A stretch of DNA of 64,000 nucleotides, taken from Exobasidium rhododendri (taxonomy: Eukaryota; Basidiomycota; Exobasidiomycetes; Exobasidiales; Exobasidiaceae). A program made the translations under genes and the position numbers. The stretch is taken from assembly GCA_026210745.1 (NCBI GenBank), contig CP110630.1, positions 2,790,001-2,854,000 on the forward strand. The letters are read 5' to 3'. Positions 24,923 to 31,226 of the stretch are shown in pieces (within the stretch, counting starts at the first letter, position 1; the number at the start of each line of letters is the position of its first letter). A model generated the notes under the pieces. The model ran no database searches, was not told where the DNA came from, and worked only from the letters and a program-made list of their open reading frames with translations.

Positions 24923-26260
24923 TTATAAGCTTGCCTTGGAGGGCAGGGACATTTTTGTCTCGTCTACGACTGGGTTTGTCATGGAGCCGAGGCCATGCGA
25001 GCCAGAGATGGTACAGATGTCGCCGTGTTTAAAAAAGACTGGAGGATCTTGCTTGAATCCTTCGGTAGGTGGTGTTCCCCTGCGCAAGAAAGGAAAGGAA
25101 AGCCATTGTCTTCAAGGTTCAGTCAAGACGATTCCTCGTGCATTGCTTCTCTGACCCGGTCTGTTTCTCCCACTCACATCGAAATTATAGAACCTGCCTC
25201 TAGTGTGGTACTGGAAAATTGAGAGTGGCATGGTCGTTGTAAGTACTAAGCCCACCCACGCACAGCAAGCGCGAATGATGGTGGTATCAAATTGAACTCA
25301 CCCTTGACTGAGCCATTCGATCGTCTCTGCGCATCCATATAGCATGTCACGAGTGTTACCCACTTGCATCGTCTTCCCGTTGACAACCGTCTTCAAGTCG
25401 ACATTGTCAGGGTCAGGAATGATCTGCGACGCAGCACTGACGATGCAAGGTCCCAAAGGTAGGAATGTATCAAATGACTTCCCTACCGTACGTTCCGCAA
25501 GAACAGGTCAGAGAACAATGGGGGGGGGGCAAAGGACGAATCAGCATCAGGCCACCTCCCGATCTTATCGAAAGGAAAAAGGGGAAAAACGCACCGAGAC
25601 CCCACTGTGGAACGGCAAACATGCGCTTTCGAGAGCTGACGTCGTTGGACAAGGTATAGCCTAGAACGTAGTCCAACGCATTCTCCTTCTTGACGTTCTT
25701 GCAAGTCTTTCCAATGATGACGACCTGTTAAAAGCCACATCAACTCAAATTTATCAGTTTCAAGGAAGGAAACAATCTCAGCACCCCTTCAACTCTGCCC
25801 CTCTTCTCAGACTCACCAGCTCGACTTCCCAATCTGTCTCACCGACAGCTTCTTTTGGCAATCGGATGTCACCTCCGAAACCTGTGATTGCTGTGTTTGG
25901 TTTGTAGAACACGATGGGTAACTTCGGTCTCTTTCCAACGCTCTTTGCTTCTGCTGGATTTTGACCTGGCTGAGCAAAGTTGGCTCCTAATGCTCTGATG
26001 GAGGAAACATGACTACGAGCATCTAAGGGAGAAAGCAGTCTTTGCACAGTCTTGATGGTGCTTGTGAGTCGCAAGGTGGTGTCTAATGGATCATCTCGCG
26101 CTAGAATGCGTGCTTGAAGTGGAGGGGAACCCTTGAGAAAGGCAGCACCAACGTCAGCGGTCGGTGGCAGGAGCGGTTCACCACTGTATGTGAGACCGTC
26201 TTCGATGGCAATGAATCGAATCAATCGAGACCAAGCAGGAGATCCGAGTGCGGCTGCCAT
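24923..26260 (-). CDS. Fumarylacetoacetate hydrolase (FAH) family protein
   Basis: Five exons (25817-26260, 25595-25724, 25302-25482, 25178-25210, 24923-25079) encode 314 residues. The FAH fold cleaves C-C bonds of acylpyruvates or decarboxylates oxaloacetate. Visible blocks are LPIVFYKPNTAITGFGGDI, the metal ligand region ETDWEVELVVIIGKTCKNV, GYTLSNDVSSRKRMF, SFDTFLPLGPCIVSAAQI, MLYGCAETIEWLSQGTTLEA and GSIISMGTPPTEGF. These define the bacterial/fungal acylpyruvase-like FAHD branch rather than full-length fumarylacetoacetase, which is about 420 aa. The true substrate is unknown. Exon 4 is only 33 nt and is supported by the continuous GTPP motif. Its upstream region was invaded by the mobile element described below. 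Confidence 0.88.
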
Positions 26261-26604
26261 TTTTCAGGGAAAGTGCTAGCGAGCGGTTGAGGTGTGAAGA
26301 TCGTATTTCACCTTTTCAACACGAGAAGCTGGTCAGTCCAGGAAATGCATCTCGCTCCTCTGCGTTCTGTCCTTCCGGTGGAGGTGGGGTAAGGCATATT
26401 CACTCACACGGGGTTTAGGAAGACATCCAATCGGGCTTCGAATTCTTAATTTTTCATGCCAGGCTAAGTAGACAAGACACGTGCTTTTGAGAAGTAGAAT
26501 ATATTTCCCATCGTTTGACTTTTCGTTTTGACTGGCGCGCGCCTCGATCTTGGCCCTGGATTTAGACTTTGAAATCACGAAGATTCTCGTGTTCTCGTGA
26601 CTTC
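26261..26604. other. FAH promoter region and left flank of the insertion
   Basis: No gene is visible. The segment should contain the FAH promoter. Its right part has an imperfect CACGAAGATTCTCGTG hairpin at about 26574-26589 that resembles the perfect palindrome starting at 26605. TTTGACTGG occurs here and again just inside the element. Confidence 0.4.
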
Positions 26605-26632
26605 CAAAATCACGAAGATCTTCGTGATTTTG
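26605..26632. repeat. 28-bp perfect palindrome at the left edge of the insertion
   Basis: The sequence reads CAAAATCACGAAGA followed directly by its exact reverse complement. It overlaps the left copy of the 14-bp direct repeat by seven bases. It could form a cruciform or be a dimeric protein-binding site. Confidence 0.9.
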
Positions 26633-26639
26633 CAAATTT
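26626..26639 (+). repeat. Left copy of 14-bp flanking direct repeat
   Basis: GATTTTGCAAATTT is identical to 30685-30698, and the two copies enclose the two-gene insertion. Crypton insertions are typically bounded by short direct repeats made by site-specific recombination, so this is a candidate left end. Confidence 0.5.
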
Positions 26640-26759
26640 TTATTTTTTGACTGGTTGTGCGCGCGTTGAACCCCTTTTTTAGATTGGGCTTTTCCCCCCT
26701 ACAGAAGATCTCATCTCACCCCCCCCACCACCACCCTGGCATTGGTATACCATAATACT

Positions 26760-27668
26760 ATGCCTTTCAGACCTAAGAGACTTGACACAGATGCTGCTAG
26801 GAAGAGGAGGGAAAGGGTAGAGGTGCAGAGCCGCAAAATTGCCCATCATCATGAGCATCCACACGCCTACATTGATCTGGAAGACAGGACTAACATTACC
26901 ATCAGTGCTGGCCATAAGACCATTATGCAGCGCTTCTCTCCTACCTCAACAAGGTCAGCTGCCCGTCTCAACGAGATGTACAGGGAGGGATGGGAGCTGA
27001 AGGAGTCTCTTTACAAGTCAGCGCTGGAGAATTTAGATGATCCTGATCGTCACGGAGCACTGGTGGTTCATTTGGGGATATGGTACAATTTTGGTCGGCA
27101 GATAGGTTGGACACGGGAACACATCAGATGCAAGCCTGCTTCAGACAAGATGCTTGACTGGATTCATTCATTCTTTATGTCATTTGTCATCATCTTGGAC
27201 TCCCTACTTGCAGAAGACTTCAGAGAGGAACTGGACACTCGGGAAGAAGGTTTTGAATGGATGGAATCTCTCTTCCCCGCTGGTGATTGTAGTCTTCTAC
27301 ATCCATGGTATGCACTGGCTGCCGTCATACAAGGCTTCTCGACAGAGAGTCATAGAGACAGCAGGGATTCAGATCCAACTATCCTCATCAATTTTGGGTG
27401 TAAGGTGGTCATAGAGGTGGAAGGGTCGGCCGTATGTCTCCACCCGGGAGATGTCCTCTTCTTCAGAGCTAATATGGAACACAAGGTCAGACCAACGGAT
27501 GGAACTTCAGAAGAAGACATGGCAAGGAGATATGCAGTAAGTCTGTCAATGAGACGGCTGATAGTGCTGAAAAAACAGCTCCCTTCCATGGAAGTCCGAG
27601 ATGTAGAAGGTGCTGGATCCTCAACAAGGATACCCCGTGTAAGAAGCAAGAAAGCTCATGTACCATAA
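26760..27668 (+). CDS. TET/JBP-like 2OG-Fe(II) dioxygenase (transposon-associated)
   Basis: A single exon encodes 302 residues. A basic N-terminus (PFRPKRLDTDAARKRRERVE) could bind DNA or act as a nuclear signal. The C-terminal half has the double-stranded beta-helix signature of fungal TET/JBP-type oxygenases: STESHRDSRDSDPTILINFG with the iron ligands His198 and Asp200, then VCLHPGDVLFFRANMEHKV with the distal His241, and ARRYAVSLSM with the 2OG-binding Arg (256 or 257). In animals and trypanosomes these enzymes oxidise 5-methylcytosine or thymine in DNA. In basidiomycetes they are known to be expanded with KDZ transposons. This copy instead sits beside a tyrosine recombinase. The substrate is inferred. 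The ATG at 26760 is the first in frame. Confidence 0.72.
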   Translation: MPFRPKRLDTDAARKRRERVEVQSRKIAHHHEHPHAYIDLEDRTNITISAGHKTIMQRFSPTSTRSAARLNEMYREGWELKESLYKSALENLDDPDRHGALVVHLGIWYNFGRQIGWTREHIRCKPASDKMLDWIHSFFMSFVIILDSLLAEDFREELDTREEGFEWMESLFPAGDCSLLHPWYALAAVIQGFSTESHRDSRDSDPTILINFGCKVVIEVEGSAVCLHPGDVLFFRANMEHKVRPTDGTSEEDMARRYAVSLSMRRLIVLKKQLPSMEVRDVEGAGSSTRIPRVRSKKAHVP

Positions 27669-28364
27669 TTAGACCAATAGACACAATTTAGACCACCCCA
27701 AAGGATGTTCAACGGTGTGAGAAAAAAATTTCAAAAAAATCCTTACAGGCATCCGAATGGATGAAATGAATATTTTTCTGCCACACACTTTTTTGAAAAA
27801 AATCTCTTACAGGCATCCTAATTGTAAACACTTATTGTGAGCCACTGAGCCATGCTAGAGACATGTTTGATATCATTTTAGAAAGTTCAGAGGTAGCATA
27901 TTTTGTGGTTTGAAGCGTTTCAAGAGAAAAAGGTAGGTGTCTTGTACACAGTCTGTTGAACATTTGCGTTTTTTTTTTTTTCAAAATCCTTACACGCAAG
28001 GACAATCTAGAGCCTGACGGTGACTTGCTCAGACATGCTAGAGACATGGTTAAGGACACTATCAAGAGATCAGAAGGAGCATATTCTATGGTCTTAATAT
28101 TGTGTCAATTGCATGATACAAATTCATCTCATAATCTGTCAAAGAAGTGTTGCTTCAAGAAAATTAGGGCATACGTGAGCAAATATTATTGCTTAGTTAG
28201 AGCCATGTAAAATAGGGAATGGGAGCCAAATGCTTGCATCTCAAGGTAGGACTACGCTTGATGATGTTTTGGGAAGTTCATAAGGAGCATATTATGTGGG
28301 TTAAACAGTTTGTCAATTACATGTCATGTCACTGCTCAGTTGTACGTTGGAAGATACAGATAAT
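27669..28364. repeat. AT-rich spacer with three diverged tandem repeat copies
   Basis: This 696-bp spacer between the convergent genes is AT-rich and non-coding. CATGCTAGAGACATG occurs at 27851-27865 and 28034-28048, 183 bp apart. AGCATATT-type blocks follow each copy, and a third, weaker block recurs near 28282. TCCTTACA(G/C)GCA-like sequences repeat near 27739, 27800 and 27985. The units are degenerate, so the duplication is old. Confidence 0.6.
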
Positions 28365-30356
28365 TCAGCCTTTTTGCACTACTCGTATATCTTTTTCTTC
28401 AGCCTTTATTGCATCAATGTATCTACGCAATGTCAAGCCAGGACCACCATATGCCTCATAGAATGCCTTTAGATCCTTATTACGCTTGAGATACCCATCA
28501 TAGATCTTCTTGCGTAGACTGTACACTTGAGCATTTCCCCCTTTGTCCTTCTTGCGCATAGCGGGGGTCCAACGGCACAAAGCCAGAAGGTTCTGACTTG
28601 CATTGCCCAATTCCCATTGCTTAACAACCTCCTCTACTGTCTTTACAGATGGTATTCTCAGTGGCAGCGGCCTGCCAGGAGCTATGTGCGGCGTCCCACT
28701 TGCCAGAGCAGAAGCAGCGTTGGCACCAATAGCAACTGCTGCAGAGGTGCCGGCAAGGTGTTCCAGTTGACTGTTGACGCTGTTGACTACACTGGGTGTT
28801 GCTGCTGTGTTTGCGGTGCCAGCCTGTGCCTGCACTCTCTGTGAACCCTGCAACAGTGCTTCTACAAGGCTGACGTTGGTCTGCTGCATTATACTGAGTT
28901 GTTTCTCGAGCTTTCCAAGGGCGTACTGGAAAGACTCTATCATGCGGTCCTGTCCTGACATTTGTGCACCTGCAAAGTAGCTACCTCGGACGTTGTCTCC
29001 ACCTGGATCCTCCATATCTCCATGATACTCTTCTTGCGTAGCAACCTCTTCTAAGAGGTAGTGAGCCAACATGTTGGTACGCTCCCCTTTAGACCAGCCA
29101 CCCCACCACAGGGCACGCGTAATGGACTGCCTCTGTTCTCCATACAGGTGTGCGTGTAATACCGCGTCTTGTGCTCCGCCGCGTCGGAAACAGTGAGACG
29201 TAAATTTGCCCTGCTGATTCTTCAGCATACTGTTGATATTCTCTATCTGACCCAACATTAAATTGATCTGTGCTGCTTCCATCCTTGTGCCAGTCTGCAG
29301 ACGGCCCACCTTCTTGTCTGGTGCAGGAAAGATGTGATCGGTTGGCCTTGGCTCATGTCCGCAAACAAGTTTCCAGTAAGCATGCCACCGTTGATATGAT
29401 GAGACAGCATCTACCAATGGCCGTCCAGGCAGGAAGTAGAGCTGGTATACGTTGGCTTTGTTCAGTTCATACTGATTTGTTTTGCGGAATGCAATTGTCA
29501 CTTCCAGATAGGGATTGTTTCCCGGAGAAGAGAATTTGATTGTTGAATGTATGTGACGCCATAGCATTGAGCAGATCTCATCACAACGTGCCCAAAGCCT
29601 GTAAGCCAGGATCATGTAGAAATGCATGAACTCTAATTGTGTACGCTCACTTGTGATGAGATGTGGTGTTGCGTCAAAGGCAAGTAGCTTTGTCTTGATG
29701 TCCTTTAGGATGACGGACAGATACTGATAAAGCATTGGTAGAGAGCTTTTGCTTGCAACCAGAGAGCGCTTCACTTCACGCATCTTGCTTCTGAATAGGT
29801 TCAGATACCTCTTACTGAAGACAGGATTGCCCGTCCATTCTCCTTCTGTGGTCTTGTGCCAGCCAGTTTGCGGAGCACTATCACAGTTGTGTACAGTAAG
29901 GAAGTGCCATTTGAGCGCTGCGTGCATACTTTGCAGTGTGCTTGAGTTGGCATCGGCCAGTCTCACACGCTCTTGTAACCAGGCGCGGCAGAGCCTTTCA
30001 CTGTGCTCACCAAGCATGTCTAGGCCGTCTTTAAATGTACAAGAGCTGCCTAATGTTGCAATCCATTTCCTGAAGCGTACAATATTCTGCTTGTATGATT
30101 TAATTGTTCCACTCGACAACAAATGATCTTGAACGTACTGATCACCAAATGCATCATCCCATTCATCTGCAATCTCTGCGTTGGGCATTGCTTCTGTTGT
30201 ATTATTGATCTCTGCTGACTCAATGTTGCCAACGGTCTCTTTTGTGCTAGACGGTGCAACATCATCTTCCATATCAATGACCATTCCCAGCTGCAGATTA
30301 GCTTCTGCCAAGAAGTGCTCAGCGGCACGAGTAATCCTTCCTCTATGATTGGACAT
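28365..30356 (-). CDS. Crypton-type tyrosine recombinase with GCR1_C-like DNA-binding domain
   Basis: A single exon encodes 663 residues. Residues 70-220 form a SAM-like core-binding domain (SSGTIKSYKQNIVRFRKWIA). The catalytic domain shows box I in AYRLWARCDEICSMLW (Arg257), a beta-hairpin Lys candidate in FRKTNQYE, the His-x-x-Arg motif in FTSHCFRRGGAQDAV (His388, Arg391) and the nucleophile in GERTNMLAHYLLEE (Tyr433). After a Gln/Ala-rich linker, the end (VEEVVKQWELGN through LRRYIDAIKAEEKD) resembles the GCR1_C/Myb-like domain seen in fungal Cryptons. Such enzymes excise and integrate their element as a circle without transposase-like strand transfer. All catalytic positions look present. 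The start at 30356 is the first ATG. Confidence 0.85.
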   Translation of the reverse strand: MSNHRGRITRAAEHFLAEANLQLGMVIDMEDDVAPSSTKETVGNIESAEINNTTEAMPNAEIADEWDDAFGDQYVQDHLLSSGTIKSYKQNIVRFRKWIATLGSSCTFKDGLDMLGEHSERLCRAWLQERVRLADANSSTLQSMHAALKWHFLTVHNCDSAPQTGWHKTTEGEWTGNPVFSKRYLNLFRSKMREVKRSLVASKSSLPMLYQYLSVILKDIKTKLLAFDATPHLITSERTQLEFMHFYMILAYRLWARCDEICSMLWRHIHSTIKFSSPGNNPYLEVTIAFRKTNQYELNKANVYQLYFLPGRPLVDAVSSYQRWHAYWKLVCGHEPRPTDHIFPAPDKKVGRLQTGTRMEAAQINLMLGQIENINSMLKNQQGKFTSHCFRRGGAQDAVLHAHLYGEQRQSITRALWWGGWSKGERTNMLAHYLLEEVATQEEYHGDMEDPGGDNVRGSYFAGAQMSGQDRMIESFQYALGKLEKQLSIMQQTNVSLVEALLQGSQRVQAQAGTANTAATPSVVNSVNSQLEHLAGTSAAVAIGANAASALASGTPHIAPGRPLPLRIPSVKTVEEVVKQWELGNASQNLLALCRWTPAMRKKDKGGNAQVYSLRKKIYDGYLKRNKDLKAFYEAYGGPGLTLRRYIDAIKAEEKDIRVVQKG

Positions 30357-30524
30357 GTTCTGGTGTGACGCTTCAGCTGATTGCGTTGATTTCCCTGCCT
30401 TCTACCAGCTATGGTCTTGCTTATTATTGTGATTTGTGAGACGGTGGAGTTCCTCAGGGCGCACAAAGTCAGGTCAATCCAGTCAAGTAGTGAAATGAGA
30501 CGGGTCAATCCAGTTTCTGCATTA

Positions 30525-30617
30525 AAAGTCAATCCTGGAGGCATATGCAGCATATTTTTTGGCCTGCTACGCAGGCATTTTGGGAAATAAGCACATATGC
30601 CCTGTTGGATTGACTTT
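30525..30617. repeat. Nested inverted repeat around GCCTGC-TAC-GCAGGC
   Basis: The outer arms are AAAGTCAATCC (30525-30535) and GGATTGACTTT (30607-30617). The middle arms are GGCATATG (30540-30547) and CATATGCC (30594-30601). A perfect six-bp hairpin GCCTGC-TAC-GCAGGC (30562-30576) sits between them. The arms are symmetrical except for short spacers of 4 and 5 nt. Confidence 0.8.
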
Positions 30618-30684
30618 GCATTTTGAAGTGGCAAACATCTCCCAAACACTCTGACGCGTTCAACATGGCCCTTTTGGCAGGGAA

Positions 30685-30698
30685 GATTTTGCAAATTT
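30685..30698 (+). repeat. Right copy of 14-bp flanking direct repeat
   Basis: GATTTTGCAAATTT is identical to 26626-26639 and marks the candidate right end of the Crypton-like element. Confidence 0.5.
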
Positions 30699-30827
30699 GC
30701 GGGCTCGGCTCGGATTGACTCACGCGTCAATTGCATCGGATAAGTTGCCCAAGGCGGGAAAGCACTTGTGTGGTGACGGCTAATCTCCTCTCCCCCTCGC
30801 ATCATTACATTCGCACATACATCAAGT

Positions 30828-31226
30828 ATGAATTCAGTAAGTCGGTGAGAAGAGAGCATTCAGGTGAGCGATGACTAAAGAGTCGTCACCCTTGCACAGT
30901 GTCAACCAATTCGTAACGACTTAGCGGCATGTTTGATGCAGACTGATTGTGTCCAAAAAGATGGAAAGACTGGTCAAGAGTGCTTACGGGATCATTTGGC
31001 TGAATTACCATCCGATTGTCAATTGATCTACAAAAGCTACGTCAGCTGTAGGAGAGGACTGTTGGATATGAGGAAGCGCTTCCGAGGTAATGCACCAACT
31101 GCTTCTCGGGAGAATAATCCACCAGGAGGGACCACGATAATCGATTCAAGTGTTTCTGTTGACGCAGCCTCAAGCAGGCCCCTCGATCCCTCGAGCGGTC
31201 TCGGTCCTGATCAGTCCGACATATGA
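30828..31226 (+). CDS. PET191: Cytochrome c oxidase assembly protein Pet191/COA5
   Basis: Two exons (30828-30836 and 30900-31226) encode 111 residues. Pet191 is a small intermembrane-space protein with twin Cys motifs, imported by Mia40 and needed for complex IV assembly. After splicing the start reads MNS-CQPIRNDLAACLMQTDC, then GQECLRDHL, LPSDCQLIYKSYVSCRRGLL and DMRKRFRGN. This reproduces the family spacing of paired cysteines and its RRxLLDMRxRFRG end. The first exon has only nine coding bases; it is supported because the in-frame extension begins with the conserved Cys and follows a clean CAG. A 40-residue Ser/Pro-rich tail is extra. The mobile element lies just upstream of its promoter. 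Confidence 0.88.

Follow-up and report, generated by a model that had tools for sequence, protein, structure and literature searches.

Background

In fungi, genes for oxygenases of the TET/JBP type are found inside transposons, and eleven such TET+ lineages, namely Kyakuja, Dileera, Zisupton, hAT7, IS3EU, PHISTA/Harbinger, EnSpm, ESTA, Plavaka and Helitron1/2, are listed in the main text of a recent account (Kojima 2025; PMC12730594), with hosts in Pucciniomycotina, Agaricomycotina and Pezizomycotina. As described there, these lineages encode DDE transposases or Helitron enzymes. Here, we describe a 4254-bp multicopy element of the plant-gall basidiomycete Exobasidium rhododendri (Ustilaginomycotina, Exobasidiomycetes) in which the gene for a TET/JBP-like oxygenase is instead paired with one for a tyrosine recombinase. 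The copy analyzed lies in a stretch of 64,000 nucleotides (C1:2790001-2854000, hereafter the window) of a four-contig, 17.65-Mb genome assembly.

On the recombinase side, comparison is with the CryptonF elements, which were reportedly described by Goodwin in 2003. In the text of Kojima and Jurka (2011; PMC3212892), CryptonF elements are small fungal elements that encode a single tyrosine recombinase, lack terminal inverted repeats and have short terminal direct repeats as the likely recombination substrate; of added genes, that text names a fused mariner transposase and a C48 peptidase but no oxygenase. The element described here has these features, the tail of its recombinase resembles GCR1_C weakly and under the cut-off, and it differs in a core of 4 bp where 6 is usual, and in its TET-like oxygenase. 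With the TET+ transposons, as the main text of PMC12730594 presents them, it has in common a TET/JBP-like gene inside a complete multicopy transposon and gene exchange between elements, whereas the three host lineages given there do not include Exobasidiomycetes. That main text, supplements aside, does not contain 'Crypton', 'tyrosine recombinase' or 'Exobasid', and literature searches joining Crypton or tyrosine recombinase with TET, JBP or oxygenase returned no such element by title, although Iyer 2014 (PNAS) may mention one earlier; in the passages found that pair Crypton with JBP, JBP occurs only within a cited title. As far as these sources go, the element is of a known kind, a TET+ fungal transposon, and what is new is its tyrosine recombinase and its Exobasidiomycetes host.

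A two-gene element in seven copies

A preliminary description of the locus, made from the sequence of the window, had proposed a single compact insertion carrying two intact, convergent genes between FAH and PET191. Both frames are indeed open, uninterrupted and convergent between these two neighbors, and the two genes do belong to one insertion, but the borders proposed for it (26626-30698) do not stand, being those of an internal 14-bp direct repeat, GATTTTGCAAATTT; alignment of the copies places the ends at 26492 and 30745 (Table 1).

Whole-genome searches with each gene, which give lower bounds on copy number, returned eight recombinase matches corresponding to at least seven places (five identical at the protein level, one at 99%, and one split by a frameshift into two matches of 99 and 97%). 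The oxygenase was found at at least eight places, seven of them beside recombinases (six identical, one 53% identical) and one, a distant relative (30%), elsewhere. At each of the seven recombinase places found, the oxygenase gene has the same relative position and orientation and lies within the borders of the element, a pairing that is beyond chance. With the further copies that the preliminary description had called for, the total is at least seven, all with both genes, and the gene pair constitutes a single mobile unit. Five copies, the window's included, are identical across all 4254 bases, in keeping with the recent movement suggested earlier; of the other two, L023 differs by a single base that causes the recombinase frameshift, and L022 is a mosaic relative to the window copy. 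Searches of the genome with the terminal 268 bases on the left and 392 on the right of the element recovered only these same seven elements (the left-end search lists 15 matches, owing to the palindrome near that end and to a second left end in L022), and neither search yielded solo ends or deleted copies besides the duplicated left end of L022. The latter is a tandem duplication of the end with adjacent flank (period 100 bp, C1:992404-992503), which apparently arose after insertion.

Ends and empty site

Each of the seven copies has AAGT at either terminus, flanked by bases that vary among copies. The two ends are not linked by any inverted repeat of at least 12 bp among the 18 inverted pairs listed. 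Copy L020 (C1:6667256-6671509), an identical element, sits within the coding frame of an MVP1-like sorting nexin, near its 3' end. Joining the flanks of this copy with one AAGT yields a frame of 540 codons that reaches 214 nt beyond the junction, whereas joining with none or with two AAGT brings a stop 17 or 30 nt beyond it. The joined protein (529 aa from the first Met) matches the yeast sorting nexin MVP1 (6q0x; E=5.9e-25, residues 108-504) in an alignment that spans the junction (at about residue 457) and has a gap of one residue shortly before it. Because both the frame and the MVP1 alignment continue through the one-AAGT junction, the empty site of L020, as reconstructed from its flanks, is one that held a single AAGT.

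A single AAGT fits recombination of a circle with a target through a shared 4-bp core, and a target duplication of 4 bp whose sequence is fixed would fit equally well; we prefer the former, because the sole recombination enzyme encoded by the element is a tyrosine recombinase. The remaining six sites are not informative. The joined frame of L018 is 735 codons long with one AAGT and 686 with two, and those of L019 and L021 are longer with no AAGT (609 vs 598 and 156 vs 116 codons); the flanks of L017, L022 and L023, joined with one AAGT, are not crossed by any frame of 90 codons. Such frames extend into sequence that lies upstream of genes or between them.

Five insertions (L017, L018, L019, L021 and L022) lie near the 5' side of frames, namely FAH/PET191, DUF1365, Dus, a SANTA-domain frame and a mitochondrial carrier; seven copies are too few for testing an insertion preference. 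Copy L018 (C1:5098022-5102275) ends 216 bp beyond the stop of a DNMT5-like methylase frame (L061, C1:5102492-5109355), a proximity noted post hoc that may be a chance coincidence.

The recombinase

The catalytic set of the window recombinase is complete (R256, K291, H387, R390, W416 and Y432, in a numbering that omits the first Met and hence runs one below that of the preliminary description). Relatives at E<=0.001 comprise 35 sequences, the window's own included, among the 8000 best candidates scored, and include proteins labelled as from Ceraceosorus, from Parajaminaea, from Mortierella and its relatives, and from mushrooms. When the window protein is aligned with 19 of the 34 other relatives, 20 proteins in all, K291, R390 and W416 are present throughout, R256 is replaced or missing in two, H387 is replaced in two, and Y432 is missing in one. 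An AlphaFold2 model (mean predicted local distance difference test score, pLDDT, 74.7; predicted template modeling score, pTM, 0.47) has C-terminal helices of good confidence, and a fold search with it returned Cre as the top match (E=2.6e-9, template modeling score by target 0.59); the best 50 of 169 fold matches are Cre, Xer, lambda or other phage-type integrases. By sequence, the recombinase profile has three matches at E<=10 in the Protein Data Bank (PDB), the best at E=1.1. The full catalytic set and the Cre-like predicted fold bear out the claim that the partner is a tyrosine recombinase rather than a DDE enzyme.

The other part of that claim, a Crypton-type identity with a GCR1_C-like tail, holds less firmly. 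The C-terminal tail matches GCR1_C at E=0.024 (15.3 bits, cut-off 23), and five of the 20 aligned proteins match at E<=3. Because the score is under the cut-off, we label the recombinase Crypton-like, a possible rather than an assigned member of CryptonF. Starship elements were also considered and rejected: the window protein has no DUF3435 match, the element measures 4.25 kb, and DUF3435 matches occur in two of the 20 aligned proteins (best E=0.0025). Neither the oxygenase nor the recombinase alignment had relatives among the viral contigs scanned, and NCBIfam and PHROGs scans gave nothing useful.

The oxygenase

The residues claimed for the oxygenase, H198-x-D200, H241 and an arginine of the pair at 256/257, are present, R257 being the invariant member of the pair in the alignment. 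Tet_JBP is the top Pfam family (E=4.7e-4, 19.8 bits) and Cupin_2 the runner-up (E=1.2e-3); at E<=0.1, four of the six family members match Tet_JBP and five match Cupin_2. With the Tet_JBP model run against the whole genome in six frames, seven matches were obtained at E<=1, none over the cut-off, and these are six of the seven element-borne oxygenases and the gene beside a MULE-like transposase described below; one of 14 control genomes, E. coli, also matches below the cut-off. A profile of the six oxygenase sequences, compared with 177,635 PDB sequences, has two matches at E<=10, both of them Naegleria Tet (E=0.005 and 0.0065). These results favor the earlier TET/JBP-like assignment, and for the window protein no other family of 2-oxoglutarate (2OG) oxygenases outscores Tet_JBP, although the generic Cupin_2 is a close second that matches more members.

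The relationship to Naegleria NgTet1 is very distant, and the alignment covers only about 50 residues. Within it, the HxD pair, an Asp five residues past the His, the PGD and the distal His all line up. D203, invariant in all six sequences, is aligned to NgTet1 Asp234 (position counted from the aligned chain), and position 207, Ser or Thr in all six, is aligned to Ser238; these two are contacts to 5-methylcytosine (5mC) in NgTet1, and the remaining contacts, Asn147 and His297, were not located in the oxygenase. HxD is present in five of the six sequences, H241 and R257 in all. For the oxygenase relative P0001, the longest contig measures 4188 bp, close to the length of the element. Asp234 of NgTet1 is described as bonding to N4 of 5mC, with Gly331 as its counterpart in Coprinopsis CcTet (PMC4224472, PMC11040006), the D234A form of NgTET serves as an inactive control (PMC11404850), and an Asp at the equivalent of position 203 is said to clash with N6-methyladenine (6mA; PMC11040006); the CcTet residues are those given in the papers' descriptions. 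On this sequence evidence we read the oxygenase as a divergent TET/JBP-like enzyme, for which 5mC is a likelier substrate than 6mA. Compared with two of the types of TET+ transposon oxygenase recognized in the main text of PMC12730594, the 'PE' type has HxE where this enzyme has HxD, and the 'AG' type has Gly or Ser where it has Asp at HxD+5.

Exchange of the oxygenase gene, and a second carrier

The window element and L022 are alike at both extremities and unlike in between. Over the first 200 bases, 198 are identical, with a 12-base length difference in addition, and the recombinase half is 98.1% identical (52 differences in 2760 bases), whereas from about 300 to 1200 blocks of 100 bases are 54-67% identical; some 250 intergenic bases of the window element are absent from L022, and the two oxygenases are 53% identical. 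For the recombinase, the synonymous distance (dS) is 0.059, with 25 synonymous and 8 nonsynonymous differences and a nonsynonymous to synonymous ratio (dN/dS) of 0.088, and the recombinase is thus under purifying selection. For the oxygenase, dS is 1.83, near saturation, and dN/dS is 0.22. Because synonymous distance differs 31-fold inside one element, the pattern points to exchange of the oxygenase gene as a cassette between elements and not to fast evolution.

The one divergent oxygenase gene found away from the seven recombinases, P0040, belongs to the same family, and is convergent with the gene for a 706-aa Mutator-like element (MULE)-like transposase with a SWIM finger. Both genes are enclosed by inverted 17-bp ends with one mismatch, and the 12-mer CGACCAGGATGG, which occurs four times in the genome, is present as a direct repeat 4 and 5 bases outside these ends (C1:4228941 and 4232570). 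The two kinds of element have in common an oxygenase of the same family, convergent with the gene for the movement enzyme; the second stands apart by its DDE-type transposase with a SWIM finger, its inverted ends and the 12-bp direct repeat that flanks it. A relative of this transposase on contig C2 (44% identical) has inverted ends of the same style, and the whole-genome oxygenase search gave no match in its element. MuDR is outside the TET+ lineages of Kojima and is named only in the introduction within the main text of PMC12730594.

Table 1. Features of the element, its neighbors and the MULE-like element (positions are those of the window unless a contig or locus is given)
Feature	Position	Strand	Remarks
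Whole element, 4254 bp	26492-30745 (C1:2816492-2820745)		alignment of seven copies
Left terminal direct repeat AAGT, putative recombination core	26492-26495	+	both ends of 7/7 copies
Near-perfect palindrome, arms of 17, 94%	26602-26635		near left end; candidate recombinase or regulatory site
Left subterminal direct repeat GATTTTGCAAATTT	26626-26639	+	14-bp repeat; left border in preliminary description
TET/JBP-like 2OG-Fe(II) oxygenase gene	26760-27668	+	302 aa; HxD 198/200, H241, R257; Tet_JBP and Naegleria Tet matches
Intergenic stretch, AT-rich, short imperfect repeats	27669-28364		separates convergent genes; right edge of exchanged segment ~27986
Tyrosine recombinase gene	28365-30356	-	663 aa; R-K-H-R-W-Y; weak GCR1_C match at 568-625; Cre-matching model
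Right subterminal direct repeat GATTTTGCAAATTT	30685-30698	+	14-bp repeat; right border in preliminary description
Right terminal direct repeat AAGT	30742-30745	+	copy alignment
FAH flanking gene	25781-26263	-	neighbor of element
PET191 flanking gene	30879-31223	+	neighbor of element
MULE-like/SWIM transposon enclosing oxygenase	L024:3958-7565 (C1:4228957-4232564)		inverted ends, flanking repeat
Distant oxygenase P0040	L024, C1:4229385-4230215		same family, 27-30% identical

The methylation setting

The host genome encodes a 2287-aa frame that combines C5-methylase, SNF2 and helicase domains in a DNMT5-like layout, in which no RING finger is listed, and a second C5-methylase (motif GPPCQPFS), which we take to be DNMT1-like. 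The main methylase set of basidiomycetes, as outlined in PMC7862722, is DNMT1 plus DNMT5, with a preference for CG. The observed/expected (o/e) ratio of CpG in the element is 0.54, compared with 0.70-0.92 across 103 equally long, overlapping slices of the window, and TCG, the most depleted, occurs 31 times on both strands compared with 104-197 in the slices. Between the recombinase halves of the window element and L022, 22 of 45 transitions fall in CpG where 12.8% is expected (binomial 4.5e-9, sites treated as independent), and the highest per-site change is at TCG (5 vs 13.0 sites). By these values, the elements resemble targets of mutation directed at CpG, a pattern that is consistent with methylation.

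The two MULE-like transposase genes have CpG o/e of 0.47 and 0.45 and TCG o/e of 0.24 and 0.23, with an oxygenase beside the first only; in the MULE-borne oxygenase gene itself, CpG is low (0.47) and TCG, given its TC and CG content, is not (1.05). The strong TCG depletion of the elements and of the MULE-like transposase genes relative to surrounding genes resembles the TCG hypermutation reported for Pucciniomycotina in the main text of PMC12730594. Depletion was considered as proof of protection by the oxygenase and rejected: it shows targeting, and does not demonstrate protection, because the MULE-like element in which no oxygenase was detected is just as depleted.

Proposed mechanism and alternatives

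We think it probable that the element is an autonomous, recently active Crypton-type transposon whose TET/JBP-like oxygenase relieves silencing by CpG methylation. The tyrosine recombinase would cut and rejoin the 4-bp AAGT core common to the element ends and the target, presumably by way of an excised circle, as the biology of the family suggests. The oxygenase would most likely oxidize 5mC in or near the element, an oxidation that would relieve CpG-methylation silencing, and the accompanying mutation, arising from the C5-methylases of the host, to the benefit of the element. By analogy, such an anti-methylation function is a likely one for TET+ transposons. Several observations weigh against this explanation. 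The lineage of the element has been mutated at CpG and TCG in spite of its oxygenase, so that protection, if any, is incomplete, and a MULE-like element with no detected oxygenase has fared no differently. The oxygenase scores under the Tet_JBP cut-off of 34.9 bits, its AlphaFold2 model, built from six sequences, is of low confidence (pLDDT 42.8) and gives no independent support for the fold, and the oxygenase of L022 (P0003) has HxN and PGN in place of HxD and PGD, such that at least this copy may be inactive. The GCR1_C tail is likewise under its cut-off, and the empty site is supported by one copy of seven.

That the pair is only apparent, two independent insertions or a host gene beside a recombinase, is refuted by seven copies with the same borders outside both genes and by the empty site of L020, which lacks the whole block at once; separate entry of the two genes, the refutation envisaged in the preliminary description, is thereby ruled out. 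It is unlikely, though by no means negligible, that the oxygenase gene was picked up by chance and rides along as a passenger, unneeded for the spread of the element. The asparagine in the HxD motif of L022 would suit such a passenger, as would the wholesale replacement of the gene between elements with 98%-identical recombinase halves, and the recovery of related recombinases from Ceraceosorus and Parajaminaea with no oxygenase from either, in a search that misses relatives sharing no 5-residue words. Yet a dispensable gene is hard to square with a frame that is open in all seven copies, with replacement by another full-length gene rather than loss, with a dN/dS of 0.22 (at a dS of 1.8, near saturation), or with the diverse transposons that carry TET genes in the main text of PMC12730594.

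Two further alternatives concern what the oxygenase acts upon. We see a small chance that it belongs to another family of the 2OG or cupin fold with a substrate other than 5mC, for example 6mA, thymine, RNA or protein, given how nearly Cupin_2 equals Tet_JBP in E-value and exceeds it in members matched, and given the poor confidence of the model; nonetheless, the PDB profile search returns only Naegleria Tet, with the HxD, the 5mC-contact Asp, the Ser/Thr, the PGD and the distal His in register, and the Asp at 203 would, by the passage cited above, clash with 6mA. We give a slightly slimmer chance to an action on the recombination step itself, in which oxidation of bases at or near the ends would regulate recombinase binding, target choice or excision. 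The presence of both proteins in one compact unit at all seven places agrees with this, as do the palindrome and subterminal repeats, which are possible protein sites; against it, the AAGT core contains no CpG, a relative of the oxygenase resides in a MULE-like DDE element, and DDE and Helitron elements carry TET elsewhere (main text of PMC12730594). Because TET-like genes sit in elements of such different kinds, the oxygenase is not tied to one recombination chemistry, and relief from methylation remains the explanation we prefer.

Implications

A small element of two genes whose ends are known, with an empty site and identical recent copies, in a host that has C5-methylase genes, makes the methylation-escape hypothesis directly testable, and the near-identical element L022, with its different oxygenase, amounts to a natural swap experiment. 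A broader proposal, plausible but held with rather less than even confidence, is that TET-like genes are an exchangeable anti-methylation cassette in mechanistically unrelated transposons of one genome, here one with a tyrosine recombinase and a MULE-like one with a DDE enzyme, and are swapped in place between near-identical elements; such a cassette may have enabled a CpG-targeted family to burst into identical copies in a methylating host, and this oxygenase may represent a fourth type besides PU, AG and PE. Beside the DDE and Helitron TET+ transposons described in the main text of PMC12730594, the tyrosine-recombinase element represents a third chemistry of movement. This argues for an oxygenase that meets a requirement shared by all these elements, namely escape from methylation, over one that assists a particular step of transposition.

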